From Cornus controversa (Eukaryota; Streptophyta; Magnoliopsida; Cornales; Cornaceae), in the NCBI GenBank assembly GCA_026545225.1, contig CM048845.1, positions 54,970,033 through 55,034,032 on the forward strand: DNA of 64,000 nt. The letters are read 5' to 3'. Positions 24,104 to 45,327 of the stretch are shown piece after piece; within the stretch, counting starts at the first letter, position 1; every line of letters starts with the position of its first letter. Position numbers and translations under genes: made by a program. Under the pieces are notes generated by a model, which was not told the origin of the DNA, ran no database searches, and was given only the letters and a program-made list of their open reading frames with translations.

Positions 24104-27100
24104 GACACAACGACGGATTATTTGGTCTGGACAGTATTTGAACAATTCAGGATCATCCCAGAAATACCTCCTTATTTGGGAAAAGAATCGATCTTTTTCT
24201 TGTTTGGTCCAATTCAAAGGAATTTTACCTATTGCTAAGTAATTCACAATGTCAGCAAACCAAGGTACTTTCTCATCAGTAATTATCAATAGCTGCTCAT
24301 CAGGAAAGGAATCATGAACTGGGATGGAATCAGAGGATTTAATAATAATACGAGAAAGATGATCGGCTACTACATTCTCAGAACCTTTCTTGTCTCGTAT
24401 TTCAAAATCAAACTCTTGAAGCAAGAGTATCCATCTAATCAAACGGGGCTTGGTTTCTTTCTTGGCTAGCAAATGCTTTAAAGCAGCATGATCAGAATAC
24501 ACAACTACCTTGGATCCTAACAGATATGATCGAAATTTATCCAAGGCAAACACGACGGCCAGTAATTCCTTCTCAGTTGTGGTATAATTCAACTGAGCAT
24601 CTGAGAGGGTTTTACTAGCGTAGTAGATAACATGAGGAAGTTTATCTACACGTTGTCCTAGGACAGCTCCCATAGCATATTCGGATGCATCACACATGAT
24701 CTCAAATGGTAAAGACCAATCAGGAGGTTTCATAATCGGGGTAGAGGCTAGAAGAGAACGGAGCTTTTCAAAAGCTTCAAGACATGTTTTATCAAAGTTG
24801 AAAGGAGTATCTTTGGCAAGTAAATTGCACAATGGTTTAGCTATCTTGCTAAAGTCTTTGATAAATCGACGATAAAATCCTGCATGTCCAAGGAATGATC
24901 TAATTTGCCTCACTGATGTAGGTGGTGGAAGATTAGAAATGAGTTCAACCTTGGCTCTATCTACTTCAATTCCTCTTTTTGACACAATGTGTCCTAATAC
25001 AATTCCTTCTTTTACCATGAAATGACTCTTCTCCCAACTCAAGATCAAATTTGTCTCTTTACAACGCTGAAGAACAATTGACAAATTTTGGAGACATTTT
25101 TCAAAAGAAGCTCCAAAGACTGAAAAGTCATCCATAAAAACTTCAAGAAATTTTTCCACCATGTCCGAAAAAATAGACATCATACACCTTTGAAATGTTG
25201 CAGGTGCATTACATAACCCAAAGGGCATGCGTCTATAAGCAAATGTTCCAAATGGACATGTGAAGGTTGTCTTCTCTTGATCCTTTGGATCGACAGCTAC
25301 TTGATTATAGCCAGAATATCCATCTAGAAAACAAAAGTAACTCTGACCAGCGAGACGTTCTAGGATTTGATCAATAAATGGTAAGGGAAAATGATCCTTC
25401 CTAGTTGTAGAGTTGAGTTTTCTGTAATCAATGCACACACGCCAACCAGTTGTTGTACGTTGCGGAATTAATTCTCCAGTCGAATTCTCAACTACGGTGA
25501 TTCCAGACTTCTTAGGTACCACTTGAATGGGGCTCACCCATTTGCTATCAGAGATGGGATAGATGATTCCTGCATCTAACAACTTGACTACTTCCTTCAT
25601 AACAACTTCTTTCATATTTGGATTCAATCTTCTTTGTACCTCACGAGATGGTTTAGCATTATCCTCCAGATGAATGCGATGCATACAAATAGAAGGATCA
25701 ATTCCTTTTAAATCAGCTACAGTCCATCCAATCGCCTCTTTGTGCAGTCGAAGTACAGTCAACAAACTACTTTCTTGGTCCTTTGTCAGGTCCGAAGCAA
25801 TGATAACTGGAAGAGTTTCATTAGAACCTAAGAAAACGTACTTTAGCTTATCCGGAAGTGGTTTGAGCTCTAATTTGGGTGGGGATTCAAGGGATGGAAT
25901 TGAAGGAGTACTAGACAATAACGGAAGTGGCTCCTTTGACATTTTCCATGGTGAAAAGTCCATGATAGTATCAATCTCAAATGCAGAATTGACTTCACTA
26001 TTTTCGATGTCATATCCTTCAAAATCATAGTGAGTCAAGAATGCCTCTAAAGGGTCTTTCGATAAAAAGGATGAAAGTGAATCTTCAACCATTTCATCAA
26101 TGATGTCAAGGGAGAAGCATTCTTTTGCATCTGACGGATGTTGTGAAGCATTGAAGACATTCAATCTTACATTCATGTTCCCAAAAGATATATCCATAAC
26201 CCCTGTTCTGCAATTTATGCATGCATTAGCCGTGGCTAAGAAAGGTCGACCAAGGATTATAGGTACATATTTTTTTGGATTTTGGACGGGTTCGGTGTCA
26301 AGGACAATGAAATCGACTGGAAAGTAGAACTTGTCTACTTTGATGAGAACATCCTCAATGATTCCTCGAGGTTGCTTAACCGATCTATCTGCAAGTTGTA
26401 GGACAATTGGAGTTGGTTTAAGCTCTCCTAAGCCTAACTGCGAGTATACTGAGTAAGGAAGTAGATTAACACTAGCACCTAAATCAAGTAGGGCTTTTCC
26501 AATTTCATAGTTTCCAATGACACACGAGATTGTAGGAGCACCAGGGTCCTTGAATTTTGGAGGTGTGTTATACAGCAGTATGGAACTAACTTGCTCAGTG
26601 AGAAGAATTTTCTTTGGAACATGACTCCTTGATTTTCTCTTCTGTGTACACAAGTCCTTGAGAAATTTAGAATATGAAGGAATTTGTTTGATTGCATCAA
26701 GAAGAGGAAGATTAATCTTAACTTGCTTGAAAACTTCCATCATGTCCTGGATCTTTTCTCCTTGCTTTCCATAACAGTATGGTTCTTTGAGACGTTCAGG
26801 ATATGGAGCTTTGAGCTCATATCTCGTCTCAAGAATGGGAATAGGTGAAGAAAGAACTTCATTCCTGACTTCTTTGTCCTTTGACAATTGTTTCACCAAA
26901 TCTTTTGGATTTTGGGGCAAATTATTTGGATTTTTAGGGATTTCTTTTGAAACTTTTGGAATCTCATTTTTCTTCTCTTCCTTTTTCTCAATCTTGTTAT
27001 CTATCTCCTTCCCACTCCTAAGGGTCATGATGGCTTGGACATGCTCATCATGAGAGGAACTAGATGCATTCTCATCAATCATGTATTGTCCTTTTGGTTT

Positions 27101-27886
27101 AGGATTGACCACTGGCTGACTTGGAAGTTTTCCCTCCTCTCTTCTATTCAAAGAATTAGCTATTTGCCCGATTTGGGATTCTAACTTAGAAATGGATTGA
27201 GAATGGGAATGTAGCAATTGAGTATTTGACTCAAGATTGCTCAATGCAGCCAACACCTTGTCTTCAAAAGCTGAATGCCTAGGAAGTGGAGTTGTTTGGT
27301 TCTGGTGTTGTTGAGAAGGTTGGTAATTGGATGAGGGATTGAAAGGATGACTATTGGACGCAAAATTGGACTGTATGGGTTGTCCAATAGGTTGAGGATT
27401 TGAATTTCCCGTGGCTTGGGGTCTCCATGAAAAATTAGGATGATTTCTCCATCCCGGGTTATAGGTATTGGAATATGGATTATTCCCTGGTCTAGAGAAA
27501 GTAGCATTCACTTGTTCTTGCCCAAGTTCAGAAAATTGGCCAATGATTTGACAATCTTTGGCATGATGTGATGGACTAGAACAAAATGAACACAACTCAG
27601 GTGGCACAGATGACTGAGTAGGAGGTGCTTGATTTGCTGCCATCAATTGATCCAGCTTCTTTGACAATGCATCCACTTTAATAGACACATCTACTGAATT
27701 GCCTACTTCAAAGAGACCTTTGACCTTAGAACGACTAGATGAAGCATGATGCATCGAATTTTCACTAAGATTCTCAAAAAGTTTCCAAGCTTCACTTTCA
27801 CTCTTTAGCATGAATGTTCCACCACAAGAGGCATCAACCATTTGTCTATGTGGTTCAGTTAATCCATCATAGAAACATTGCACCAA
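24104..27886 (-). pseudogene. Athila gag-pol, open to the truncation (truncated copy)
   Basis: About 1260 codons, open from just after the shared TAA. Domains in order: gag C-part with CCHC knuckle (residues about 99-112), protease DLGASVNLLP (468-477), RT with FMDD (917-920), RNase H (D1066, E1107, D1132), then the start of the integrase HHCC region, where it is cut. Unlike the other copy, it keeps the reading frame between RNase H and integrase. Confidence 0.88.
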
Positions 27887-28561
27887 TTACCATTTTGGGA
27901 CAGCATGATGAGGACACTTCCTAAGAAGATCTTTCAATCTCTCCCAAGTTTCATAGAAATGTTCTCCTTCACTTTGTGCAAATCCAGTGATAGATTTTCT
28001 AATTTGATTGGTTTTTCCTATAGGAAAGTACTTCTGGAGGAACTCTTGTTGTAATTGTGTCCAAGAAGTAATCGTGTTATTTTCTAAGGATTTCAACCAA
28101 TGCTTAGCTTTGTCTTTCAAAGAGAATGGAAAAAGTTGCATCCTTAAGGCATCTTCAGTAAAACCTTGCATCCTTAGGGTAGAGCAAATTTCAAGAAATT
28201 CATCAAGGTGCCTATATGGATCTTCATTATTAAGTCCATAAAAAGATGGTAACATTTGGATAACACTGGACTTAATTTCATAATAGGTGGCTGTTACATT
28301 TGGTAATTGAATTCCTGAAGGAAAGTTGTATGTGGTAGGAATGTAATGATCCCGAAGGAGCATTGGTCTTTCCTCAACCATTATGGGTGGTACAACTTCT
28401 TCTACAATTACTGGTCTTACACCATCTTCTGCCATGTTTTCAATTGAAGATTCTCTAGGTAAATTAAAGTCCCTTACAGTTCCTTTAAGATGCCTAAGAG
28501 TTCTTTCAAGATTAGGATCTAATGGAAGTAATGGTAGTGATAACGAACGGCGACCAAACAT
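27887..28561 (-). pseudogene. Athila gag, N-terminal part (truncated copy)
   Basis: 224 codons from the ATG at 28561 to an in-frame TAA, identical in content to 40129-40803. It holds the retrotransposon-gag region (YRHLDEFLEIC, LRMQLFPFSLKDKAKHWL). The TAA falls where related Athila gags read W-Q-L-V-Q, so it interrupts gag itself, and both copies share it. Confidence 0.85.
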
Positions 28562-29207
28562 AAACTAACAAACAAAATAAGAAATTAATCACACAAAAAC
28601 AACCAGAAAAAAAAAAATTTTATTTATTTATTTATTAAAAACTACTTCTCTTTGGATTTTACAATTAATAGATTACCGATTAAGAGCCTTTAAAACGAGA
28701 ACAAAGTAGTACATATGAAAGGAGGAGAAGCACTAGGCTTGCTTAATGACGGAACATCCAAGCTTTCATATTAACTATCCTTCGCCACTCAAATTAAAGG
28801 GTACTCACCGGAGTGACTAAAAATTGAGTCCTTCGGAGAAGAAAATCTTTTTTTTTTTTTTTAAAAAAAATGAAAATAGTAGTAATACTCAAACAAACAC
28901 ACTAAATATAACGGCAAGAAAACAAGTAAACAATGTAAATTGCAAAACTTACCCGATGTCCTTGAAAGATCAACTCTCAAGGGTGCCGACGTTGAACATG
29001 AGATTTGACAATTCACAAAAACAAACAAAACAAATATATACTAAAAAAAAATTTAAAATAATGTAAAATACAAGACTTACCCACTTTCTTTTGAAAGATC
29101 AACTCTCAAAGCTTGTAGCAACTCTTGTACCTTCACACTTAACAAACAAATTATATACCAAAATATTTACAAATCCTAACTATAATCAAACAAGATTTAA
29201 TCAGCAT
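28562..29207 (-). promoter_or_regulatory. Athila 5' untranslated leader (truncated copy)
   Basis: Contains two repeats of the minus-strand motif TTGAGAGTTGATCTTTC, each followed by a GGGTAAGT donor-like site (around 28950 and 29078). Short plus-strand open frames here are not genes. Confidence 0.6.
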
Positions 29208-29225
29208 TCCCCGGCAACGGCGCCA
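29208..29225 (-). other. Primer-binding site next to the middle LTR
   Basis: Minus-strand TGGCGCCGTTGCCGGGGA, the Athila-type PBS (tRNA-Asp complement), five bases from the LTR end. Confidence 0.9.
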
Positions 29226-29230
29226 AAAAT

Positions 29231-30683
29231 TGTTGTGCTTGGAAAGGGTATTTTGTTTTACCAAAATAATTCTTGTCCAATTCTTAATAAACCACTCGCA
29301 ATAGCACGAATCTTTGTAAGATAGGGCTCTTGTGAAGGTGTCGATCCCACAGAGAATGTGATTAAATTAGTCTCATTTGATTCATTGAAGAGAGGTTGAT
29401 ATTTTTGGTATTTGTTTAACATAAAATAAAGGGCACTAGTTAAAGTTTGAATTGATAAATATAAGAGGGACTAGGGTATTGATTTCACCACTAGCCTCAC
29501 ATCAATGGAAGAATGTATTTCAACTTGGGAAAGTTACATATGTATAATCATGATTCATGGGATTTGTCACATACCACCATGATATCTTCAAGAAAATACA
29601 TAAATCAAAAGATAAGAATAATTCATCTCTAGTTAGTATGAATCGTCTACCTAACTACTTAAATAAAAGACATAACATGAAATTAAAAGTGTAGAACGAT
29701 TCATCTTCCTTAAGCATGAATTATCAAATCTAATGAATTTATGTTCTAATAAAATTATTGTATAACTTTCATACTTTATAAGATAAGAGAAGAATGAAGT
29801 CAAGATTAAACATAACTTTATACTTCAATTACAAATGTAATCCTCAAAGTTATACAACTTATTATACACATATAACAATCCCAAATAAAAATATTATTAT
29901 CATACCATTGATGCTTGGCTAGGGCTACATCAATGCCCTAGGAAGAGTTTTAGCTCCTCATGGCTAACTTACAAGTCTTCATAGTTGAAGAACACTTCAT
30001 ATTTCTATATGTGTGCAGAATATTTCCACTCACTTCTCCTCCTCTACACTACTCAATTCCCCTCCATTTATAGCCAAAGTTAGTGCAATATGAGTGGGGT
30101 GGTTGCTTGTCATCTCATTGGTCACTTGTCACAAAATTTTCAAAGCAACCAAAGAAAAATCTGCCCAGAATATTTATCCTACTGTTTTGTCCACTTTCAA
30201 CCACCAAGACGTCAGAATTAGAGATTTCTCAAAACTAAACATATTTAGAACTCTCTTTTATCTTTCCATAGCCACAAAAATCGCCTTAATTGGAGTTTGG
30301 AGCATGAAGTTATGGTCAAAATACAAACAGTGCGCAGATCAGAATGTTGAACGAATTTTGGGCTTGAGATTAGTCTTGCACTTGTACTTGACCCAATGAA
30401 TGAACCAATTCAGATTTTTGGCCCCTTTTGCATTAAATCTTCAATATAGCTTGGCCCAATCCATGGACTCATCATTGGAATTTGGCCCAAACTAATGGCA
30501 ATTTCTTCTTCTTATGGAAGCCTCATTGAAAGCCCAAGAACCATGGAATTAACCACTATTTCATCTAAGGATCTGAAAATGACAAAAACAAAATAAAACT
30601 ATAAAAATACTAATATAAACATAATTAAAGGATTAACATATGTAAATTAGAAGGACCGAATGCACAACATTCTGTGCTTATCA
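29231..30683 (-). repeat. Athila middle LTR (3' LTR of the full copy, 5' LTR of the truncated copy)
   Basis: 1453 bp, TGTTGTGCTTGG...GCTTATCA on the plus strand, so TG...CA on both strands. On the minus strand a TATA element CTATAAATGG lies at 30073-30064. Confidence 0.93.
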
Positions 30684-30696
30684 CACCCCCAAACTT
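30684..30696 (-). other. Polypurine tract of the full Athila element
   Basis: Minus-strand AAGTTTGGGGGTG directly abuts the TGATAAGC start of the 3' LTR. It primes plus-strand DNA synthesis. Confidence 0.8.
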
Positions 30697-32358
30697 ACAT
30701 GTTGCTAGTCCCTTAGCAATACACAACAAGAAAAATAAAACAACTTTCCTCTTTCGTGGGAAATACGATTGCATTTAGCAAATGCAACAAGCCTTTTAAA
30801 CCCCTAGGCATCCCTAGTGGACGAGTGAAGTCTCGTGAGGGTTTAACAGATATGTTACCCACAAACATCAAGTGATAATAATTACACTCAATAAAATTTT
30901 CTCCATTTAATGTGCAACTGGCAAGAATACTTTAATCAATCCACTTCAGTGTGTAATAAAGATCGAAAGATTCAATACTATCCAAAAATCAGAAAATTTC
31001 ATTACTATTATTAACTCAGAGTGTGTGTGTGAATATAGCCTGATAATATAATTCTCAAATTAAAAGCGACTGCAGTCCAGATTTCTTTAGAAAATTAGCT
31101 TTGATCTCAAATCTCACATATGATATTTCACTCAAAATAAAGTTCTCAGAAATTGGCTAATTTTTCACTCAAGTATATATGAGAAGAATAATGTAAACAA
31201 GTGCAAATTATCTCACATATGATTCATCTGAAGGACCGCAAATACATGAAGGAATATGTAGTCTCATGAAAGGGATATCAAACATTAAGAATTTATACCA
31301 CAACACTATAGCTCAGTCATGACTGTTTTAGAACCATACCATCCTTGAGATCAAATAGGGCTTTTACTAGGATGTAATGTTAGGTAAAAAGAGGATAAAG
31401 AGGTGATGGTGAAATTGAAATGTGTATTCGAGAATGCTTGGGAAAAGTCAATTCCTTAGAGCACATTGCATTCAACTTCTTCTTACTTTTGTCAATTAAT
31501 TCTTTTTGTATACACTTCTTCAACAAATCCATACCTTCTTTTCTTCACTTTTCTTTTTCTATTTTTCTTCTTTTTCTTTTTTTTTTCTTTTTTTTTTCTT
31601 TTTTTTTTTATCTATTGATCAAATCGATTCCGAAACACTTTGATAAAAGGGTTATGAAATGAAGGTTAGCTAAAGCTCAACGGGTTCACTAGTGGTATTG
31701 CATTACCAAGAAAAGAAATTTAAAGGCTAAAAAAAAAAGAATATCACAAAAGCTCACTGGGTTAAATCTCCACTTTTATTCTTCGGATTTCTAACATGCA
31801 GTCACTCATCAATTTCAAATTATATCGAAGGGCTATCGTGATAATATTGTTCTGAGTTTTAAAATTCATGAAATTTATTCTAATTAAAAGATAGGATAAA
31901 ATCTATAAAATATACTGAAGCTTCAAGATTTTCAAAAATTATTTGCACATTGAAAATAGAAAAATCAAATCATAGTGTAAAAATTACCAATATATTATTA
32001 TTATTATTATTTTTAAATTTTTTTTTTTTTTTCAAATAAAACATAACAAAACAAAATTGTTCTTCCTTACCCCCAAACTTAAATCACACATTGTCCTCAA
32101 TGTGTAACAAAAACATAAAGTATATGGTAAGTGATAGAACAATATTACCGTGGTGGTAGAAATATCAAAATCTAGTTAAGCATCCATAAGGGTTAGCCAT
32201 CCCCCCAAACTTGGATACAAGAACCTGTCATGCAGAACACAATACATACCAACCAAGGCAACAAAATTAATCGGAACATCCAAAATAAGTTAAACACAAA
32301 TTAAGAACAAAAAATCAAGATTTCATCATTCATCTAAAGTAAGAACATGTTGCTTAAT
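30684..32358 (-). other. Athila 3' untranslated region
   Basis: No gene. It contains PPT-like motifs CCCCCAAACTT at 32070-32080 and 32202-32212, and a long polypyrimidine run at about 31545-31609 (polypurine on the element strand). The plus-strand open frame at 31420-31662 is a by-product of that run. Confidence 0.7.
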
Positions 32359-32952
32359 TTATGAATGACGTAGATAGGAAGAAACAATTGATTGGAACTC
32401 ATCACCATCATCTTGTACGATGTTTGGATCCATAAACTGATTTTGACAATAAGACATGGTGTCAAAATTGTTGCATAAGTCCTGGTTCAGTAGTGGTGCC
32501 ATGTCCACATTTTCAGATGGAACCCAGCTTTGAACATGATTATCTGGTGGATGTGATGAAAAGTTCCCTTCAAAAATATCATTAGGGTTTACACTGGAGG
32601 AGCTAGAAGCAAAGTTTTGAGCTGCCAGGTGACTGAGAGAAACCAGTTGTGCTTGTAGATTGAGAAGTTGCCATTCAAGAGAAAGAATATATGAAACGCA
32701 ACCAAAAATGGGATCGTGAAGCCTAGCTTGAGCTTCATATGCCATAGATAGAACAGCTGTACCACGATGTTCTTCAGGGAGATGAGCAAGGATGTTTGAG
32801 AAGTTGCGATACCCAAAAATTTTATGGATGGCAGCAAAAGTGTCTATACTATCTTCATGGCAAAAATAAGGAGCACAAATGCAATACTTATCACATTTGT
32901 TTCTCAAGAATTTGCAAACACCACAAGGAGTTTTAGACATGTTGGAAAACAC
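32359..32952 (-). CDS. ORF-C: LOB-domain (LBD/AS2) protein carried by Athila
   Basis: 197 codons, ATG at 32952, same strand as gag-pol. The LOB zinc-finger C-block is complete: C10-x2-C13-x6-C20-x3-C24 (PCGVCKFLRNKCDKYC), followed by the APYF motif. The GAS block includes FAAIHKIFGYRNFSNIL, SMAYEAQARLHDP (invariant D80-P81) and FGCV. A leucine-rich helix follows (L92, L96, L99, L103, L106). The C-terminal half is Ser/Asn/Asp-rich and typical of an activation-type tail. LBD proteins are plant-specific nuclear DNA-binding factors. Host LBD genes commonly have an intron in the LOB region; this ORF has none, which fits capture of a spliced transcript. It lies between integrase and PPT, where some Athila elements carry an env-like ORF. 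Domain call sure; function in the element unknown. Confidence 0.88.
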   Translation of the reverse strand: MFSNMSKTPCGVCKFLRNKCDKYCICAPYFCHEDSIDTFAAIHKIFGYRNFSNILAHLPEEHRGTAVLSMAYEAQARLHDPIFGCVSYILSLEWQLLNLQAQLVSLSHLAAQNFASSSSSVNPNDIFEGNFSSHPPDNHVQSWVPSENVDMAPLLNQDLCNNFDTMSYCQNQFMDPNIVQDDGDEFQSIVSSYLRHS

Positions 32953-33310
32953 GAAGAAGAAACACAGATTGCTAATACTTACTCTTTCAAAAAATTTTTT
33001 TTTTTTTGTTTGTTTTTAATCAAACAAATTCTTTTCACTTTTGGGGTAAAAGAGTGTCTCACACATGCATTGTACCTATATTGCACATATTCCAAACATG
33101 CCGCCACACACTTAATGATGTCATTGACAAACAAGCCATCTATGTTTGACAAAATGACCTAACCTAGCTCTAAAAGCGTTGATTGGACAAATTTCGTAAT
33201 TCGAGATGCATAATTGGTGGGCAAATTTTTTATGCATTTGAAGAGCAGATTTTTTTTAATATTGGAACATTGTTGTATCTATCTATCTTCTTCACCACAA
33301 GCTCTCAAAA
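32953..33310. other. Intergenic stretch between ORF-C and ORF-B (head to head)
   Basis: The starts of ORF-C (32952, minus) and ORF-B (33311, plus) face away from each other across 358 bp, so this could hold a bidirectional promoter. The T-rich run at 32991-33017 is followed by AT-rich sequence. Confidence 0.4.
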
Positions 33311-33856
33311 ATGGCTTCCTCTTTTGTTTCCAAAAGTCACTTCGATTTAAATGTGTTGCCGGAGGTGCCATCAACCGATGTTGGGCAGGCAACATTCCTA
33401 TCCTCTATTGATCCTCACCCAGTGGAGGAATCCGTGATGCTGAATGATACAACTGCTACGAGAGCAGCTAAAAATTTGCTAACTCCTCGAGATAAAAGAG
33501 TTTTAGCAAATAGGTCTGACATTATGGCCATTGACGACTCTTTGACTCTCAGCATTCGATCGGCTGCGTCGATTTCAAACATAGGCCAACGTTTGTTAGC
33601 AAGAACAACTGAAGTTCAGATGCTAACAACTAACGTTAAAGTTCTTCAGAAAAGAATTAAGGAGTCTCAGAAAAAAAATAGAGAACTGAAAGCAGAGAAT
33701 AAACAGTTGCGAAAGCTTGTAACTGAGTATTCTAATGAAATGAAGATGAAGCTGGATGAGCTACAGAGTTCCGGTGAGCAGATTCAGGAGAATCATGGGA
33801 GACTCATAGCTATTGTCGAGAAAAATCCTTCTTTTTCTTATTCAAAACAAAATTAA
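33311..33856 (+). CDS. ORF-B: antisense coiled-coil protein with DLNxxP motif, carried by Athila
   Basis: 181 codons on the plus strand, opposite to gag-pol, ATG at 33311. The N-terminus reads SHFDLNVLPEVP; DLNVLP (residues 12-17) fits the DLNxxP form of the plant EAR repression motif. Residues about 95-165 are a charged heptad-rich helix (VLQKRIKESQKKNRELKAEN, KQLRKLVTE), a probable coiled coil for self-association. No catalytic motif, signal peptide or membrane segment is seen. The ATG lies about 75 bp past a CT/T-rich stretch. I do not recognise the family. A role as a repressor or adaptor is only an inference from motif. Antisense extra ORFs are known in Tat-lineage elements but this is an Athila-type element. 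Confidence 0.6.
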   Translation: MASSFVSKSHFDLNVLPEVPSTDVGQATFLSSIDPHPVEESVMLNDTTATRAAKNLLTPRDKRVLANRSDIMAIDDSLTLSIRSAASISNIGQRLLARTTEVQMLTTNVKVLQKRIKESQKKNRELKAENKQLRKLVTEYSNEMKMKLDELQSSGEQIQENHGRLIAIVEKNPSFSYSKQN

Positions 33857-35206: not shown

Positions 35207-36546
35207 CTAGTCAAAATAAATAGGATCTGTCAAGTTAACGGATTCAACATCTTCTGCTTGTACAGTATCTTCTACATAAAGCTTCAATCTTTGACCATTG
35301 ACCTTGAAAAGATTATCATTCTTAGGATCTTGAAGTTCCACAGCTCCATAGGGAAAAACAGATGAAATTATGAAAGGACCATCCCAACGTGAACGAAGCT
35401 TTCCAGGAAAGAGGTTTAATCTAGAATTGAACAACCAAACTTTCTGTCCTGGAACAAAGGTTTTATTCACAATATTTTTATCATGAAATGCCTTCATTTT
35501 AGCTTTATAAATTTTGGCACTTTCATAAGCATCATTTCTCATCTCTTCAAGTTCATTCAATTGGAGTTTTCGGGTTGAGCCAGCCATTTTCATGTCAAAA
35601 TTGAATTTCTTAATGGCCCAAAGAGCTTTGTGTTCTAATTCAACTGGGAGATGGCAAGCTTTCCCGTAAACAAGACGGTAAGGGGTCATTCCAATGGGAG
35701 TTTTAAAGGCAGTTCAATAGGCCCAAAGTGCATCATTTAGTCTTAAAGACCAATCTTTTCTGTCCGGCCTAACCGTTTTTTCAAGAATATGCTTTATTTC
35801 CCTATTAGATACTTCAACTTGTCCACTTGTCTGAGGATGGTAAGGTGTAGCTATTTTATGAGTAACAGAGTATTTGATGAGCAAGGTTTGAAGAAACCTA
35901 TTACAAAAATGTTTACCTCCATCACTTATTATTGCTCTCGGTGTACCAAAATGAGTAAAAATGTTAGTTTGAATAAACTTAATCACAACTTTGTGATCAT
36001 TCGATTTGGTGGCAACCGCTTCAATCCATTTAGATACATAATCTACGGCCAACAATATGTACTCACATCCAAATGATGGTGGAAATGGTCCCATGAAATC
36101 TATACCCCATACATCAAAGATTTCAACAATTAAAATGGGATTTAAAGGCATCATGTCTTTCCTAGACATTGATCCTAATTTCTGACATCGCTCACAAGCT
36201 CGACAAAAATTATAAGAATCCCGAAATAATGATGGCCAAAATAATCCACTTTGTAAAACCTTTTGAGAGGTCTTTTTAGCACTGAAATGTCCTCCACATG
36301 CTAAGGTGTGACAAAAAGTAAGAATACTTTGCAACTCACTTTCAGGGACACAACGACGGATTATTTGGTCTGGACAGTATTTGAACAATTCAGGATCATC
36401 CCAGAAATACCTCCTTATTTGGGAAAAGAATCGATCTTTTTCTTGTTTGGTCCAATTCAAAGGAATTTTACCTATTGCTAAGTAATTCACAATGTCAGCA
36501 AACCAAGGTACTTTCTCATCAGTAATTATCAATAGCTGCTCATCAG
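35207..36546 (-). pseudogene. Athila integrase (full copy, frameshift plus stop)
   Basis: The zinc-binding HHCC region reads [14 protein letters not shown] then [11 protein letters not shown]. The DDE core residues are in [21 protein letters not shown] and [15 protein letters not shown] at 35714-35716 follows LWAY where relatives read an Arg codon; the rest ([15 protein letters not shown] to LTDPIYFD) is open to 35207 and includes the C-terminal domain ([20 protein letters not shown]). It follows RNase H in a shifted frame. Confidence 0.9.
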
Positions 36547-39500
36547 GAAGGAATCATGAACTGGGATGGAATCAGAGGATTTAATAATAATACAAGAAAG
36601 ATGATCGGCTACTACATTCTCAGAACCTTTCTTGTCTCGTATTTCAAAATCAAACTCTTGAAGCAAGAGTATCCATCTAATCAAACGGGGCTTGGTTTCT
36701 TTCTTGGCTAGCAAATGCTTTAAAGCAGCATGATCAGAATACACAACTACCTTGGATCCTAACAGATATGATCGAAATTTATCCAAGGCAAACACGACGG
36801 CCAGTAATTCCTTCTCAGTTGTGGTATAATTCAACTGAGCATCTGAGAGGGTTTTACTAGCGTAGTAGATAACATGAGGAAGTTTATCTACACGTTGTCC
36901 TAGGACAGCTCCCATAGCATATTCGGATGCATCACACATGATCTCAAATGGTAAAGACCAATCAGGAGGTTTCATAATCGGGGTAGAGGCTAGAAGAGAA
37001 CGGAGCTTTTCAAAAGCTTCAAGACATGTTTTATCAAAGTTGAAAGGAGTATCTTTGGCAAGTAAATTGCACAATGGTTTAGCTATCTTGCTAAAGTCTT
37101 TGATAAATCGACGATAAAATCCTGCATGTCCAAGGAATGATCTAATTTGCCTCACTGATGTAGGTGGTGGAAGATTAGAAATGAGTTCAACCTTGGCTCT
37201 ATCTACTTCAATTCCTCTTTTTGACACAATGTGTCCTAATACAATTCCTTCTTTTACCATGAAATGACTCTTCTCCCAACTCAAGATCAAATTTGTCTCT
37301 TTACAACGCTGAAGAACAATTGACAAATTTTGGAGACATTTTTCAAAAGAAGCTCCAAAGACTGAAAAGTCATCCATAAAAACTTCAAGAAATTTTTCCA
37401 CCATGTCCGAAAAAATAGACATCATACACCTTTGAAATGTTGCAGGTGCATTACATAACCCAAAGGGCATGCGTCTATAAGCAAATGTTCCAAATGGACA
37501 TGTGAAGGTTGTCTTCTCTTGATCCTTTGGATCGACAGCTACTTGATTATAGCCAGAATATCCATCTAGAAAACAAAAGTAACTCTGACCAGCGAGACGT
37601 TCTAGGATTTGATCAATAAATGGTAAGGGAAAATGATCCTTCCTAGTTGTAGAGTTGAGTTTTCTGTAATCAATGCACACACGCCAACCAGTTGTTGTAC
37701 GTTGCGGAATTAATTCTCCAGTCGAATTCTCAACTACGGTGATTCCAGACTTCTTAGGTACCACTTGAATGGGGCTCACCCATTTGCTATCAGAGATGGG
37801 ATAGATGATTCCTGCATCTAACAACTTGACTACTTCCTTCATAACAACTTCTTTCATATTTGGATTCAATCTTCTTTGTACCTCACGAGATGGTTTAGCA
37901 TTATCCTCCAGATGAATGCGATGCATACAAATAGAAGGATCAATTCCTTTTAAATCAGCTACAGTCCATCCAATCGCCTCTTTGTGCAGTCGAAGTACAG
38001 TCAACAAACTACTTTCTTGGTCCTTTGTCAGGTCCGAAGCAATGATAACTGGAAGAGTTTCATTAGAACCTAAGAAAACGTACTTTAGCTTATCCGGAAG
38101 TGGTTTGAGCTCTAATTTGGGTGGGGATTCAAGGGATGGAATTGAAGGAGTACTAGACAATAACGGAAGTGGCTCCTTTGACATTTTCCATGGTGAAAAG
38201 TCCATGATAGTATCAATCTCAAATGCAGAATTGACTTCACTATTTTCGATGTCATATCCTTCAAAATCATAGTGAGTCAAGAATGCCTCTAAAGGGTCTT
38301 TCGATAAAAAGGATGAAAGTGAATCTTCAACCATTTCATCAATGATGTCAAGGGAGAAGCATTCTTTTGCATCTGACGGATGTTGTGAAGCATTGAAGAC
38401 ATTCAATCTTACATTCATGTTCCCAAAAGATATATCCATAACCCCTGTTCTGCAATTTATGCATGCATTAGCCGTGGCTAAGAAAGGTCGACCAAGGATT
38501 ATAGGTACATATTTTTTTGGATTTTGGACGGGTTCGGTGTCAAGGACAATGAAATCGACTGGAAAGTAGAACTTGTCTACTTTGATGAGAACATCCTCAA
38601 TGATTCCTCGAGGTTGCTTAACCGATCTATCTGCAAGTTGTAGGACAATTGGAGTTGGTTTAAGCTCTCCTAAGCCTAACTGCGAGTATACTGAGTAAGG
38701 AAGTAGATTAACACTAGCACCTAAATCAAGTAGGGCTTTTCCAATTTCATAGTTTCCAATGACACACGAGATTGTAGGAGCACCAGGGTCCTTGAATTTT
38801 GGAGGTGTGTTATACAGCAGTATGGAACTAACTTGCTCAGTGAGAAGAATTTTCTTTGGAACATGACTCCTTGATTTTCTCTTCTGTGTACACAAGTCCT
38901 TGAGAAATTTAGAATATGAAGGAATTTGTTTGATTGCATCAAGAAGAGGAAGATTAATCTTAACTTGCTTGAAAACTTCCATCATGTCCTGGATCTTTTC
39001 TCCTTGCTTTCCATAACAGTATGGTTCTTTGAGACGTTCAGGATATGGAGCTTTGAGCTCATATCTCGTCTCAAGAATGGGAATAGGTGAAGAAAGAACT
39101 TCATTCCTGACTTCTTTGTCCTTTGACAATTGTTTCACCAAATCTTTTGGATTTTGGGGCAAATTATTTGGATTTTTAGGGATTTCTTTTGAAACTTTTG
39201 GAATCTCATTTTTCTTCTCTTCCTTTTTCTCAATCTTGTTATCTATCTCCTTCCCACTCCTAAGGGTCATGATGGCTTGGACATGCTCATCATGAGAGGA
39301 ACTAGATGCATTCTCATCAATCATGTATTGTCCTTTTGGTTTAGGATTGACCACTGGCTGACTTGGAAGTTTTCCCTCCTCTCTTCTATTCAAAGAATTA
39401 GCTATTTGCCCGATTTGGGATTCTAACTTAGAAATGGATTGAGAATGGGAATGTAGCAATTGAGTATTTGACTCAAGATTGCTCAATGCAGCCAACACCT

Positions 39501-40128
39501 TGTCTTCAAAAGCTGAATGCCTAGGAAGTGGAGTTGTTTGGTTCTGGTGTTGTTGAGAAGGTTGGTAATTGGATGAGGGATTGAAAGGATGACTATTGGA
39601 CGCAAAATTGGACTGTATGGGTTGTCCAATAGGTTGAGGATTTGAATTTCCCGTGGCTTGGGGTCTCCATGAAAAATTAGGATGATTTCTCCATCCCGGG
39701 TTATAGGTATTGGAATATGGATTATTCCCTGGTCTAGAGAAAGTAGCATTCACTTGTTCTTGCCCAAGTTCAGAAAATTGGCCAATGATTTGACAATCTT
39801 TGGCATGATGTGATGGACTAGAACAAAATGAACACAACTCAGGTGGCACAGATGACTGAGTAGGAGGTGCTTGATTTGCTGCCATCAATTGATCCAGCTT
39901 CTTTGACAATGCATCCACTTTAATAGACACATCTACTGAATTGCCTACTTCAAAGAGACCTTTGACCTTAGAACGACTAGATGAAGCATGATGCATCGAA
40001 TTTTCACTAAGATTCTCAAAAAGTTTCCAAGCTTCACTTTCACTCTTTAGCATGAATGTTCCACCACAAGAGGCATCAACCATTTGTCTATGTGGTTCAG
40101 TTAATCCATCATAGAAACATTGCACCAA
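36529..40128 (-). pseudogene. Athila gag C-part, protease, RT and RNase H (full copy)
   Basis: 1199 codons, in the same frame as the upstream gag after the TAA. The CCHC knuckle is at residues 99-112 (CSFC...H....C), the protease active site DLGA at 468-471, RT from about 740 with FLDGYSG (D855) and FMDD (917-920), and RNase H with D1066, E1107 and D1132. The frame ends early at [10 protein letters not shown], because one base is missing at about 36546 compared with the other copy. The integrase continues in the next frame. Confidence 0.9.
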
Positions 40129-40803
40129 TTACCATTTTGGGACAGCATGATGAGGACACTTCCTAAGAAGATCTTTCAATCTCTCCCAAGTTTCATAGAA
40201 ATGTTCTCCTTCACTTTGTGCAAATCCAGTGATAGATTTTCTAATTTGATTGGTTTTTCCTATAGGAAAGTACTTCTGGAGGAACTCTTGTTGTAATTGT
40301 GTCCAAGAAGTAATCGTGTTATTTTCTAAGGATTTCAACCAATGCTTAGCTTTGTCTTTCAAAGAGAATGGAAAAAGTTGCATCCTTAAGGCATCTTCAG
40401 TAAAACCTTGCATCCTTAGGGTAGAGCAAATTTCAAGAAATTCATCAAGGTGCCTATATGGATCTTCATTATTAAGTCCATAAAAAGATGGTAACATTTG
40501 GATAACACTGGACTTAATTTCATAATAGGTGGCTGTTACATTTGGTAATTGAATTCCTGAAGGAAAGTTGTATGTGGTAGGAATGTAATGATCCCGAAGG
40601 AGCATTGGTCTTTCCTCAACCATTATGGGTGGTACAACTTCTTCTACAATTACTGGTCTTACACCATCTTCTGCCATGTTTTCAATTGAAGATTCTCTAG
40701 GTAAATTAAAGTCCCTTACAGTTCCTTTAAGATGCCTAAGAGTTCTTTCAAGATTAGGATCTAATGGAAGTAATGGTAGTGATAACGAACGGCGACCAAA
40801 CAT
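40129..40803 (-). pseudogene. Athila gag, N-terminal part (full copy)
   Basis: 224 codons ending in the shared in-frame TAA (KW-stop-LVQ). The gag capsid region carries YYEIKSSVIQMLPSFYG, YRHLDEFLEIC and KHWLKSLENN. The product would be a capsid-like protein for virus-like particles in the cytoplasm, but it lacks the zinc knuckle unless the stop is read through. Confidence 0.85.
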
Positions 40804-41450
40804 AAACTAACAAACAAAATAAGAAATTAATCACACAAAAACAACCAGAAAAAAAAAAAATTTTATTTATTTATTTATTAAAAACTACTTCTCTTTGGAT
40901 TTTACAATTAATAGATTACCGATTAAGAGCCTTTAAAACGAGAACAAAGTAGTACATATGAAAGGAGGAGAAGCACTAGGCTTGCTTAATGACGGAACAT
41001 CCAAGCTTTCATATTAACTATCCTTCGCCACTCAAATTAAAGGGTACTCACCGGAGTGACTAAAAATTGAGTCCTTCGGAGAAGAAAATCTTTTTTTTTT
41101 TTTTAAAAAAAAATGAAAATAGTAGTAATACTCAAACAAACACACTAAATATAACGGCAAGAAAACAAGTAAACAATGTAAATTGCAAAACTTACCCGAT
41201 GTCCTTGAAAGATCAACTCTCAAGGGTGCCGACGTTGAACATGAGATTTGACAATTCACAAAAACAAACAAAACAAATATATACTAAAAAAAAATTTAAA
41301 ATAATGTAAAATACAAGACTTACCCACTTTCTTTTGAAAGATCAACTCTCAAAGCTTGTAGCAACTCTTGTACCTTCACACTTAACAAACAAATTATATA
41401 CCAAAATATTTACAAATCCTAACTATAATCAAACAAGATTTAATCAGCAT
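40804..41450 (-). promoter_or_regulatory. Athila 5' leader (full copy)
   Basis: The same repeated donor-like motif as the other copy: TTGAGAGTTGATCTTTC followed by GGGTAAGT, near 41190-41225 and 41320-41350. It differs from the other copy only in A/T homopolymer lengths. Confidence 0.6.
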
Positions 41451-41468
41451 TCCCCGGCAACGGCGCCA
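41451..41468 (-). other. Athila primer-binding site (full copy)
   Basis: Minus-strand TGGCGCCGTTGCCGGGGA, five bases inside the 5' LTR. Confidence 0.92.
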
Positions 41469-41473
41469 AAAAT

Positions 41474-42926
41474 TGTTGTGCTTGGAAAGGGTATTTTGTT
41501 TTACCAAAATAATTCTTGTCCAATTCTTAATAAACCACTCGCAATAGCACGAATCTTTGTAAGATAGGGCTCTTGTGAAGGTGTCGATCCCACAGAGAAT
41601 GTGATTAAATTAGTCTCATTTGATTCATTGAAGAGAGGTTGATATTTTTGGTATTTGTTTAACATAAAATAAAGGGCACTAGTTAAAGTTTGAATTGATA
41701 AATATAAGAGGGACTAGGGTATTGATTTCACCACTAGCCTCACATCAATGGAAGAATGTATTTCAACTTGGGAAAGTTACATATGTATAATCATGATTCA
41801 TGGGATTTGTCACATACCACCATGATATCTTCAAGAAAATACATAAATCAAAAGATAAGAATAATTCATCTCTAGTTAGTATGAATCGTCTACCTAACTA
41901 CTTAAATAAAAGACATAACATGAAATTAAAAGTGTAGAACGATTCATCTTCCTTAAGCATGAATTATCAAATCTAATGAATTTATGTTCTAATAAAATTA
42001 TTGTATAACTTTCATACTTTATAAGATAAGAGAAGAATGAAGTCAAGATTAAACATAACTTTATACTTCAATTACAAATGTAATCCTCAAAGTTATACAA
42101 CTTATTATACACATATAACAATCCCAAATAAAAATATTATTATCATACCATTGATGCTTGGCTAGGGCTACATCAATGCCCTAGGAAGAGTTTTAGCTCC
42201 TCATGGCTAACTTACAAGTCTTCATAGTTGAAGAACACTTCATATTTCTATATGTGTGCAGAATATTTCCACTCACTTCTCCTCCTCTACACTACTCAAT
42301 TCCCCTCCATTTATAGCCAAAGTTAGTGCAATATGAGTGGGGTGGTTGCTTGTCATCTCATTGGTCACTTGTCACAAAATTTTCAAAGCAACCAAAGAAA
42401 AATCTGCCCAGAATATTTATCCTACTGTTTTGTCCACTTTCAACCACCAAGACGTCAGAATTAGAGATTTCTCAAAACTAAACATATTTAGAACTCTCTT
42501 TTATCTTTCCATAGCCACAAAAATCGCCTTAATTGGAGTTTGGAGCATGAAGTTATGGTCAAAATACAAACAGTGCGCAGATCAGAATGTTGAACGAATT
42601 TTGGGCTTGAGATTAGTCTTGCACTTGTACTTGACCCAATGAATGAACCAATTCAGATTTTTGGCCCCTTTTGCATTAAATCTTCAATATAGCTTGGCCC
42701 AATCCATGGACTCATCATTGGAATTTGGCCCAAACTAATGGCAATTTCTTCTTCTTATGGAAGCCTCATTGAAAGCCCAAGAACCATGGAATTAACCACT
42801 ATTTCATCTAAGGATCTGAAAATGACAAAAACAAAATAAAACTATAAAAATACTAATATAAACATAATTAAAGGATTAACATATGTAAATTAGAAGGACC
42901 GAATGCACAACATTCTGTGCTTATCA
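41474..42926 (-). repeat. Athila right-hand 5' LTR
   Basis: 1453 bp, the same length and apparently the same sequence as 29231-30683. It abuts MULE coding sequence at 42927. Confidence 0.93.
42307..42316 (-). promoter_or_regulatory. TATA element of the Athila 5' LTR
   Basis: Minus-strand CTATAAATGG in the U3/R part of the LTR, followed by GAGG and CT/GA-rich sequence. It is the likely start region for element transcription. Confidence 0.6.
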
Positions 42927-45327
42927 ATACCATTGGGAATATTGATCCAAACAAATATCGTTACCTTGAGTTCATATCTAATGCAAATGAGTTTTCATTG
43001 GCAAATGATCCTACACAAGTGAGTATGTCCATAAACATATATTGTTCTATTCCTGGGTCAAATGAGAGAATGTTAGTGGCAAATGATACAGATGTCTTAA
43101 TAATTTTTCAGTTACATAGTCAAAGTAAGACATTTGATGTTTTTTTGGAAGTTAATGAGTTTAAAACTCTAATTAGTAACTTAGGTAGCTCTAGTGGTAT
43201 TAGTACTGCTAGAGGTATGCCAACTGGTTCAAGTATTGGTAAGAGTACTAACAGTGAGAGTGAGAGAATGTCTCAAATTATGAGTGCCAGTGAAGTGATG
43301 GAAAAAGATAATGAAGAAGACAGTGATGTTGATTGGAGTGAGGATGAGTGTTTCACTTTTATTGATACTGATAAGGATGTTCCATTAGGGCATGGTAAAG
43401 GTAAAGACATAACTTCAGATTCTGACATTGAACTGGATGAGGAAATATTTTGTGATGTAAATGATGATGGCCTATCAGATTACAAGTCTGATGACAGTGA
43501 GGGATTTGTAGGACCTAGTGATGATGATGCAGTAGATGAGGAAAATAATGGCATAAACATTAGGGGTAAGGTCTTTGAATATGTTTCTGGGGAAAAAATT
43601 AAACTGGTGAGAGGGCTTCTGTTTAATGATGTGCACCATTTTAGAGGGGTTCTTAAAGAATTCTCCATTCAAGAAGGTTTTAAGTTAGTCAAGGACAATA
43701 ATGAAAAGGCTAGGGTCACAGCACATTGTGCTGTTGAGGGCTGTAACTGGAGGGTCCATGCTTCACCCTTATAAGATGGGATGACATATGCCATAAAGAA
43801 AGTTGATCCTGACCATACTTCTATCAGATTAAGGAAAAATCGTGATGCTGGTTGTGGTTGGGTTTGTAAGAAGATGAAAGAACAATTAAAAACTAATCCT
43901 AACATGAGAATAGAGGCAATGCATGCTGAGGTATTGAAAAATTAGGGAGTTGATGTTGGTAATATGACCCTTTACAGGGCTCAGAAGAAAGCATTGCTAG
44001 AAGATAGTGGTAGTCATGCAAAGTCCTATGCCAAAATACCTCAGTTTGGCGAAGAGTTGAAGCTAACAAATCCAGGAAGTGTGCTGAAGCTTAAAAGACA
44101 TTTGGTTCCACCCCATGTGGGTTATTTTAGAGAGTGTTTGTTGCAATTGCAGCAATGCATTCTAGCTTTAAGTTGGGATGCAGACCTTTCATTGGTTTGG
44201 ATGGATGCCATTTGAAGGGTCCATTTGGGAGTGTGTTTGTCTCAGCTGTTGGTATTGATGGGAACATTGGTTTGTTCCCTATTGCTTTTGGTGTTGTTGA
44301 AAGTGAAACAAAGGATAGTTGGGATTTCTTCTTAAAAAGTTTACACATTGTCATAGGTTCTGGAAATGCTGATGGAAAGGTGTGGACCTTCATAACTGAT
44401 GGTCAGAAGGTATGCATTATTTTATTCAAATAAACAGTGAATTTAACTGCATACAATTTCTATTTTTGTATTTATTTATTTATTTATTTTTATTTTAGGG
44501 AATAGAGCATGCCTTCATGCAAAATTTTAATGGGTTAATTCATAGAAGATGCAGCAGGCACATATTTAACAATTACAAGTGTAGGTTTCCTAGGTTGACA
44601 TTTAGGAGACAGTTTTAGGCTGCAACAAGGGCTTATACAGATAGGGATTTTAAGAGTGCAATGTCTAAAATTCAAGAAGTGTCTAAGGAAGCACATGATT
44701 GGCTATTGAGACACCCTGTAGAGCTTTGGGCTAGGCACAAGTTTTATAGTTATTGTAAAGCTGAACATGTTACATCTAACTTTGTTGAATCCTTCAATAG
44801 TTGGTTGGGAAATTTCAGGGAACAACCCATACTTTCACTGATTGACACAATTAGATCCAAGTTGGCGGGTAAATTACATAAGAGGTATCAGACATCAACT
44901 GCATGGGAGTCTAGGTTTACTCCACAAACAGTGAAGAAGAGTAATGGGGCTGTACTTGATTCTAGGCAATGTACATTAATTTTTGCAAGGGGAGATTGGT
45001 ATGAGGTCATGGATTGTTTTAGGACATTTGTGGTTAATCTGATGCAAAAAAGTGTTGCTGTAATGTTTGGAATTTCACTAGAGTGCCTTGCAAACATGCT
45101 GCTGCATGTATAACTTACAAAATGCTAGAAATTGAAGATTTTGTTGACAACTACTTTTCAACTGATATGTATTTGAAGGCATATAACCATATCATTCATC
45201 CTCTCTATGATCAAAGCATGTGGCCACATGTGGATTGTAACCCAGTTTTCCCACCACCACTTAGAAGGCTGCCAGGAAGGGCAAGAAAAAATAGGAGAAG
45301 AATGTTTGATAAGGGGCCAGCTCTATA
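42927..45327 (+). pseudogene. MURA-type transposase (broken, N-terminus lost)
   Basis: Plus-strand pieces: an N-terminal acidic region (42927-43771), a DNA-binding MuDR-like region to about 44130, and the DDE catalytic core and SWIM finger to 45327. The DDE residues are visible as FIGLDGCHLKG (D), FITDGQK (D) and NFVESFNSW (E). The SWIM zinc finger reads CCCNVWNFTRVPCKH. A phase-0 intron lies at 44410-44498. Disruptions are stops at 43772-43774, 43943-43945 and 44616-44618, and frameshifts near 44130 and 45040. Athila cut the reading frame at 42926; the codons upstream of that point are not found on the far side. Transposition function is therefore lost. Confidence 0.88.

Follow-up and report, generated by a model that had tools for sequence, protein, structure and literature searches.

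Oncogene-carrying retroviruses are retroelements that took up a host growth regulator in spliced form, after which the gene diverged. In plants, Steinbauerova reportedly described a LOGL4 gene in Athila in 2011. A survey of 121 angiosperm genomes found 15 domains that are uncommon in LTR retrotransposons, all of them in Gypsy-type elements, and the host-type ones include YgdH/LONELY GUY in Citrus (for which Steinbauerova 2011 is cited), B3 in Aegilops, and AlkB-type 2-ODD in Phalaenopsis (accessible text of PMC9289625). According to the same text, the extra genes of plant retrotransposons most often have no known domain, and because of this their purpose has stayed open. LBD (LOB-domain) proteins of class IB (LBD16, LBD17, LBD18, and LBD29) drive the development of lateral roots and callus downstream of auxin; the N-terminal LOB part of an LBD protein binds DNA and dimerizes, while the C-terminal part activates or represses (accessible text of PMC7178066). 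Cotton LBDs, when overexpressed, promote callus even if no auxin is added (accessible text of PMC8990305).

We analyzed a 64,000-nucleotide stretch of the Cornus controversa genome (C1:54970033-55034032, hereafter the window) together with the whole genome, which was surveyed as 771.7 Mb in 61 contigs. In the window, an Athila-type retrotransposon carries an LBD ORF that reads in gag-pol sense between integrase and the polypurine tract (PPT)/3' LTR. It shares position and orientation with aORF-3S, the env-like ORFs of Athila, Calypso, and Bagy2, but it encodes a recognizable transcription-factor domain, whereas theirs encode an env-like protein (accessible text of PMC7264820). A second ORF of the element (33311-33856) is coiled-coil-like and matches in layout the antisense ORFs of Grande (gene23), Retand, and RIRE2 in the same source. 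The antisense ORF of PvRetro13, with an SMC-type domain, has a like layout, and extra ORFs with such a domain are described in bean retrotransposons (accessible text of PMC4093653). The antisense ORF of our element differs from these in standing head-to-head with a sense LBD, and the one database relative found for it is P0033 (69%). As in the Citrus, Aegilops, and Phalaenopsis Gypsy cases in the accessible text of PMC9289625, the host-type domain is present in several members of the lineage. In the main text of that paper, as far as accessible, "lob" and "DUF260" have 0 occurrences; LOB is not mentioned in the accessible part of PMC11963269; and a literature search in which subscription journals were thinly covered turned up no retrotransposon reported to carry a LOB gene. 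Host genes captured and retained by Gypsy lineages are a known kind; what is new, to the extent of this search, is the LOB gene, its arrangement, and its remodeling.

Table 1. Features of the LBD-carrying element and its tandem neighbor in the window
Feature	Position	Strand	Evidence or remark
Complete LTR retrotransposon unit	42926 to 29231	-	LTRs, primer-binding site (PBS), Pfam domains, PPT
5' LTR of the complete unit (TG...CA)	41474-42926	-	Sequence comparison
Primer-binding site TGGCGCCGTTGCCGGGG	41452-41468	-	Sequence
gag and pol together	40803-35207	-	
gag, N-terminal part, closed by a stop	40129-40803	-	Pfam Retrotrans_gag, E 5e-16
Protease, reverse transcriptase, RNase H	36529-40128	-	RVT_1, E 3.6e-30; RT_RNaseH, E 6.2e-36
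Integrase core (rve, H2C2)	35714-36532	-	Pfam, E 7.5e-13 and 1.4e-11
Integrase, C-terminal part	35207-35689	-	ORF
Coiled-coil-like ORF of 181 aa in the aORF-3R layout (antisense to gag-pol), divergent from the LBD	33311-33856	+	ORF
Spacer between the head-to-head ORFs, 370 bp	32941-33310	.	
LBD ORF, 193 aa, intronless, LBD29-like class IB derivative	32359-32940	-	Pfam, 5ly0, family position, trees
3' region between LBD and PPT	30696-32358	-	Two extra PPT-like TTTGGGGG at 32070-32077 and 32202-32209
Polypurine tract adjoining the 3' LTR	30684-30695	-	TTTGGGGG at 30686-30693
3' LTR of the complete unit	29231-30683	-	Doubles as 5' LTR of the second, truncated unit
Truncated second unit of the tandem, with PBS, gag, and most of pol	24104-29230	-	Ends at 24104

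The element has the gag-PR-RT-RH-INT order of the Athila lineage of Ty3/Gypsy, with a protease match (Asp_protease_2, E 6.2e-05) slightly below the Pfam cutoff (24.1 versus 24.3 bits). Both Athila-lineage signals were found: the PBS TGGCGCCGTTGCCGGGG, which we take to be the form known for Athila (tRNA-Asp), and the PPT TTTGGGGG, presumably the form typical of Athila. There are three PPT-like tracts on the minus strand of the 3' region, and the last alone adjoins the LTR. The preliminary description had called the LTRs equal and the element young. The LTRs are indeed equal, with 0 mismatches across the 1457 bp compared, but the identity extends through a 6.58-kb tandem duplicate (24104-30683 versus 36347-42926; 99.94% identical) that spans LTR, gag, and most of pol, so it is no simple evidence of youth, and we dropped it as an age estimate. 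Pol had been described as broken, which is true of the window copy, where gag is interrupted by a stop and the pol frame breaks near 36530 and 35700, but not of the family as a whole, in which 18 of the 77 integrase places among the matches listed lie in an open 1865-1866-aa frame. The window thus has one unit plus a part of a head-to-tail tandem with a common LTR. On C6, three LBD copies (36349514, 36362106, and 36374699) follow one another at intervals of 12,592 and 12,593 bp, a spacing like that of a tandem array of this element. Directly beside the outer LTR of the window copy, a plus-strand region (42917-45113) contains part of a MuDR-type transposase (Pfam DBD_Tnp_Mut, E 1.9e-14) at 42917-43774, and the Athila-type element may sit inside a MULE.

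The LBD ORF had been placed at 32359 to 32952. The minus-strand ORF is real, but its 5' limit has moved: the codon there is a GTG, and the natural ATG lies at 32940, which gives a protein of 193 aa. Pfam LOB (PF03195) matches residues 9 to 106 of the 197-aa version with an E value of 1.6e-30 (106.1 bits, cutoff of 24.2), which excludes a chance ORF. The wheat Ramosa2 LOB domain (5ly0) is the sole PDB sequence match up to E 0.001 (E 1.5e-24), and it is also the sole fold match up to E 0.001 when the AlphaFold model of the protein is searched with Foldseek (two chains, E 7.6e-08). Block means of this model are 69 to 90 through residue 110 and below 50 from residue 124.

The complete LOB C-block seen earlier in the sequence, C6-x2-C9-x6-C16-x3-C20, is invariant in all 41 copies that we read base by base. 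A GAS block with D-P and FGCV had also been noted. FGCV and D76-P77 are there (P77 in 41 of 41 copies and D76 in 40 of 41), but the GAS tripeptide itself is replaced by GYR, with Y44 in 41 of 41 copies and R45 in 40 of 41; YR is also found in the database protein P0001. From the leucine-rich helix, L88, L95, and L99 are kept, but the strict LX6LX3LX6L coiled-coil pattern of class I LBDs is absent, the fourth position being A as in the host gene L031. The protein also keeps the C-terminal tail motif, and its frame is intron-free between integrase (35207-36532) and the PPT, as had been described.

We investigated the distribution of the gene over the whole genome. In a search with the LBD protein, 150 of 264 candidates were scored; the listed rows with at least 67% identity were taken as the element set, and the rows below that value are host LBD genes and a second LBD group. 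Among the matches listed, at least 74 are full-length at 67% identity or more, and 53 of the 74 are stop-free. A search with the end of integrase, chosen to avoid LBD ascertainment (150 of 6322 candidates scored), listed 77 matches at 83-100% identity, which make up the element family, and 73 at 75-78%, which make up a sister family. Among these matches, an LBD lies downstream on the same strand at 68 of the 77 family places, in 66 of the 68 at a distance of 1985-2282 bp, whereas no scored and listed LBD match lies within 15 kb of any of the 73 sister-family places, and this holds for the rows with at least 67% identity as well as for 71 rows of lower identity. Presence at the same position in other family members, which the preliminary description had proposed to check, is thus what we found. 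The sister Athila-like family, with an integrase 75-78% identical, is apparently abundant and has many 1878-aa open frames, without a listed LBD.

Among the matches listed, the 68 integrase-ascertained LBDs comprise 40 that are full-length and open, 19 that are full-length with a stop, and 9 that are partial. Of the 77 family integrase places, 17 fall within an open frame of 1866 aa and one within a frame of 1865 aa, as long as an intact gag-pol should be. An open LBD accompanies 15 of these 18 copies and 25 of the 59 others among the matches listed (p 0.003, confounded by age). No LBD is listed for 9 of the 77 listed family places, two of them among the 18 with full-length frames, so the gene may be dispensable. 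Base-by-base reading of 20 long copies showed LTR sequence after the LBD in every one (incomplete in L022) and integrase ahead of it in 18; the C-terminal part of integrase has 98.3-99.6% DNA identity in those 18 and is missing from two. In L014 and L015 (C5:13374884 and 17326711), LBD and LTR are kept while integrase and half of the antisense ORF are missing, possibly a nonautonomous derivative.

Named public relatives of the element protein are LOB-domain proteins, many of them LBD29-like, with identities of 33-61%. Among the host genes, L031 (C6:62.965 Mb) comes nearest; it encodes 240 aa and has a single intron of 110 bp. Its paralogue L030 (C3:45.730 Mb) has an intron of 109 bp. The element LBD is homologous along the whole protein to LBD29 and class IB LBDs (L031; 5ly0), with C-block, D-P, coiled-coil leucines, and tail in common, but unlike L031, it is intronless, lies in a retrotransposon, and has GYR for GAS and 193 instead of 240 residues, with about 60% identity. 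The 110-bp intron is absent from it exactly at its site. Outside the coding sequence, the comparison of element and L031 gave no convincing homology, and the untranslated parts may have diverged beyond detection.

Phylogenetic analysis with the host's own genes, as had been suggested, placed the element inside an LBD29-like host pair, next to L031 (99/97). The 46-row tree has the form L030,(L031,(second group, element)) with supports of 90/96, 99/97, and 99/97, and it joins the element rows and P0001 at 100/100; it leaves out 13 of 59 rows, namely, nine host fragments, two named proteins, and two rows of the second group. In the 59-row tree, the supports are 90/96, 90/94, and 99/97, and the fragment L037 joins L031 (90/71). 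An LBD from a distant plant was rejected on the same placement inside the host genes. Capture of a spliced host transcript had been proposed from the sequence, and the precise loss of the L031 intron together with the position in the tree argues for it: the LBD copy would have come from a spliced message, with a single retro-origin near the L031 lineage and later diversification. That the LBD is a family gene gained by host capture is, in our judgment, nearly certain.

P0001 is a 203-aa open protein on a 936-bp contig; since its identity to the full-length element copies of this genome is 58-67%, it represents another lineage. The second group consists of intronless LBD29-derived loci, listed at 30 or more places with at least 50% identity to L040, most of them with stops. 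Eight of its loci were read (L029, L034, L035, L038, L040, L041, L044, and L047). Their flanks are common to one another and differ from those of the Athila element, and in 2.6-3.9 kb of flanking sequence each, there was no match to gag, pol, integrase, or the antisense ORF. The simplest reading is that one retro-origin reached two mobile or repeated carriers, the Athila element and a putative carrier of the second group. In the host, the pairs L030/L032 (C3:45.73-45.74 Mb) and L031/L033 (C6:62.965-62.973 Mb) have the same opposite-strand layout about 8-10 kb apart, as after whole-genome or segmental duplication.

Recent copies have a pN/pS of 0.45 in the LBD (41 copies) and 0.40 in the integrase end (19 copies). 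We computed omega against the substitution spectrum of the neighboring spacer as a neutral reference. For the LBD, 66 nonsynonymous and 32 synonymous changes in the 41 recent, LBD-biased copies compare with an expected nonsynonymous share of 0.783, an omega of about 0.57 (p 0.008); for the integrase end, the counts are 20 and 12 (19 copies, p 0.036). A conserved frame with dN/dS below 1 had been another of the suggested checks, and it was borne out in part: 35 of the 41 copies read base by base have an open LBD (one of the 35 without ATG) and omega is below 1, but the shared changes alone (12 and 6) are not significant (p 0.18). Singletons, which are expected to be nearly neutral, resemble the shared changes (omega of 0.58 and 0.56), and stops in recent copies number 5 against 5.6 expected. 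Forty of the 41 copies are the best LBD matches, a biased sample, so the frame and the counts lean towards intactness, and we regard the case for selection on the LBD in recent copies as modest. By identity class, the stop-free fractions among the matches listed are 35 of 41 at 95-100%, 11 of 17 at 90-95%, 6 of 10 at 85-90%, and 1 of 6 below 85%, where each difference lies just partly on the copy's own branch.

Constraint on the long branch is firmer than that on recent copies. About 120-150 changes fall on it without a stop, for which neutral decay would give a P of 0.004-0.0003. Between element and L031, dS is 0.446 and dN is 0.253, with a dN/dS of 0.57 overall, 0.42 in the C-terminal part, and 0.75 in the LOB domain, which evolves far faster than the LOB domain between host paralogues (dN/dS of 0.06). 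The amino acid changes that could be placed lie overwhelmingly on the element side (LOB, 36 versus 2 on the L031 side; C-terminal part, 25 versus 2). The LOB domain has thus changed fast, as from GAS to GYR, with its four cysteines retained; its omega of 0.75 would also fit partial relaxation. Element and P0001 have the LOB replacements R14N, F22C, A44Y, S45R, C60G, E61T, A63V, Y79F, H84Y, F86L, and Q89E in common, and since so many are shared, the remodeled form largely predates the P0001 split and was kept afterwards. Taken together, protein-level constraint on the LBD after its capture is likely.

The best explanation, and in our view a likely one, is that a captured LBD29-like gene in an Athila-type family has been retained as an accessory nuclear regulator. 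The zinc finger cysteines, the D-P proline, the dimerization helix, and the tail are kept while the LOB domain is altered, which is what suggests such a regulator. The LBD protein would enter the nucleus and pair with itself or with host class IB LBDs of the LBD16/18/29 type, and this pairing would shift the target program of the host LBDs or the element's own promoters; a shift towards auxin-driven, dividing, pluripotent cells would favor expression and transposition of the element. Action through the host LBD network is a tentative part of this proposal, somewhat short of an even chance. The stronger version, in which a neofunctionalized LBD29 derivative pushes host cells to auxin-driven division or callus-like states that permit transposition, is improbable.

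Two readings would make the ORF a passenger of one kind or another. An unrelated later insertion into one copy, for instance of a processed pseudogene with its flanks, would fit the intronless state taken alone, but the surroundings agree among the 20 long copies (an LTR after the LBD in every one, integrase ahead of it in 18), and of the 77 integrase-ascertained copies among the matches listed, 68 have the LBD in that position; the probability of such an event is negligible, and a one-off insertion was rejected. The LBD might also have been captured once and then copied along with a successful element, its conservation reflecting the youth of the copies. The fetched copies are in fact young (mean pairwise differences of 1.6% in the LBD and 2.5% in the spacer), their shared changes reach no significance in the nonsynonymous/synonymous test, and 19 of the 68 integrase-ascertained LBDs among the matches listed have a stop while 9 are partial. 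Mere hitchhiking would, however, hardly leave the long branch from the host gene free of stops, nor many of the remodeled residues in P0001, a 68% relative that is likewise open. The LBD is also indel-free in 40 of 40 copies of the LBD-biased sample, where alignment to the window copy leaves 7-20 gap positions in the adjacent spacer. We consider a hitchhiking gene unlikely.

Other readings give the protein a different task. It might mainly control transcription of the element, at the LTR or at the spacer between LBD and antisense ORF, like the accessory regulators of retroviruses. The head-to-head arrangement across the 370-bp spacer is in keeping with this, and antisense genes published for this position can be driven by a promoter of their own and yield a nuclear product, as with Grande gene23 (accessible text of PMC7264820). 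The spacer is, however, less conserved than the sense LBD (2.5% versus 1.6% mean difference). GC-rich LOB-type binding motifs have the form GCGGCG; neither the LTR nor the 3' region has a site of this type, and the spacer has one GCGGC, so self-activation through the LTR is unsupported, and a regulator devoted chiefly to its own element seems doubtful to us. A remodeled LOB domain beside an intact dimerization helix could instead disable host LBDs rather than regulate targets. The LOB omega of 0.75 against 0.42 in the C-terminal part, and the loss of basic R14 and of GAS with retention of the coiled-coil residues L88, L95, and L99, would agree with such a dominant-negative protein; a pure inhibitor, however, needs no C-terminal part, the part that activates or represses (accessible text of PMC7178066), and it is this part that has the lower omega. 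We rate this possibility as low. The retained accessory nuclear regulator is the reading that we prefer.

Like oncogene-carrying retroviruses, the element has a captured, spliced, and diverged host growth regulator; unlike them, it has this gene in most of the family copies examined, some with full-length gag-pol frames. If the stronger version given above is true, the LBD element would be a plant counterpart of an oncogene-carrying retrovirus, yet one retained by most of the family and predating the divergence of the P0001 source. A captured growth-switch gene of the root and callus kind raises the question of its use to a genetic parasite. This accessory gene encodes a recognizable transcription factor that lends itself to biochemistry, the host parent and the intron position are known, dozens of the gene's copies are open, and a sister family without the LBD is available for contrast; because of this, its role is directly testable. 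LBD gene counts in such genomes may also include genes of elements.

The 370-bp spacer is a possible bidirectional promoter. It contains one TGTCTC (33055-33060), presumably AuxRE-like and conserved in 40 of 41 copies; since chance alone would place about 0.18 copies of such a 6-mer on the two strands of a 370-bp stretch, it is a weak hint. The antisense ORF on the far side of the spacer matched no Pfam family above its cutoff and had weak matches to coiled-coil-type families. Its shared changes (24 nonsynonymous and 24 synonymous, expected nonsynonymous share of 0.733, p 5e-4) indicate constraint, and for all changes, the counts are 73 and 44 (p 0.006), with a pN/pS of 0.46 in 41 copies. The alignments of 13 of the 40 fetched copies have a frameshifting gap in it against the window copy. 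Five relatives of this ORF that were checked (55-58%, e.g., C7:13974746) are without a listed LBD (at least 67% identity) within 6 kb, and for this reason the antisense ORF may be older in the element lineage than the LBD.
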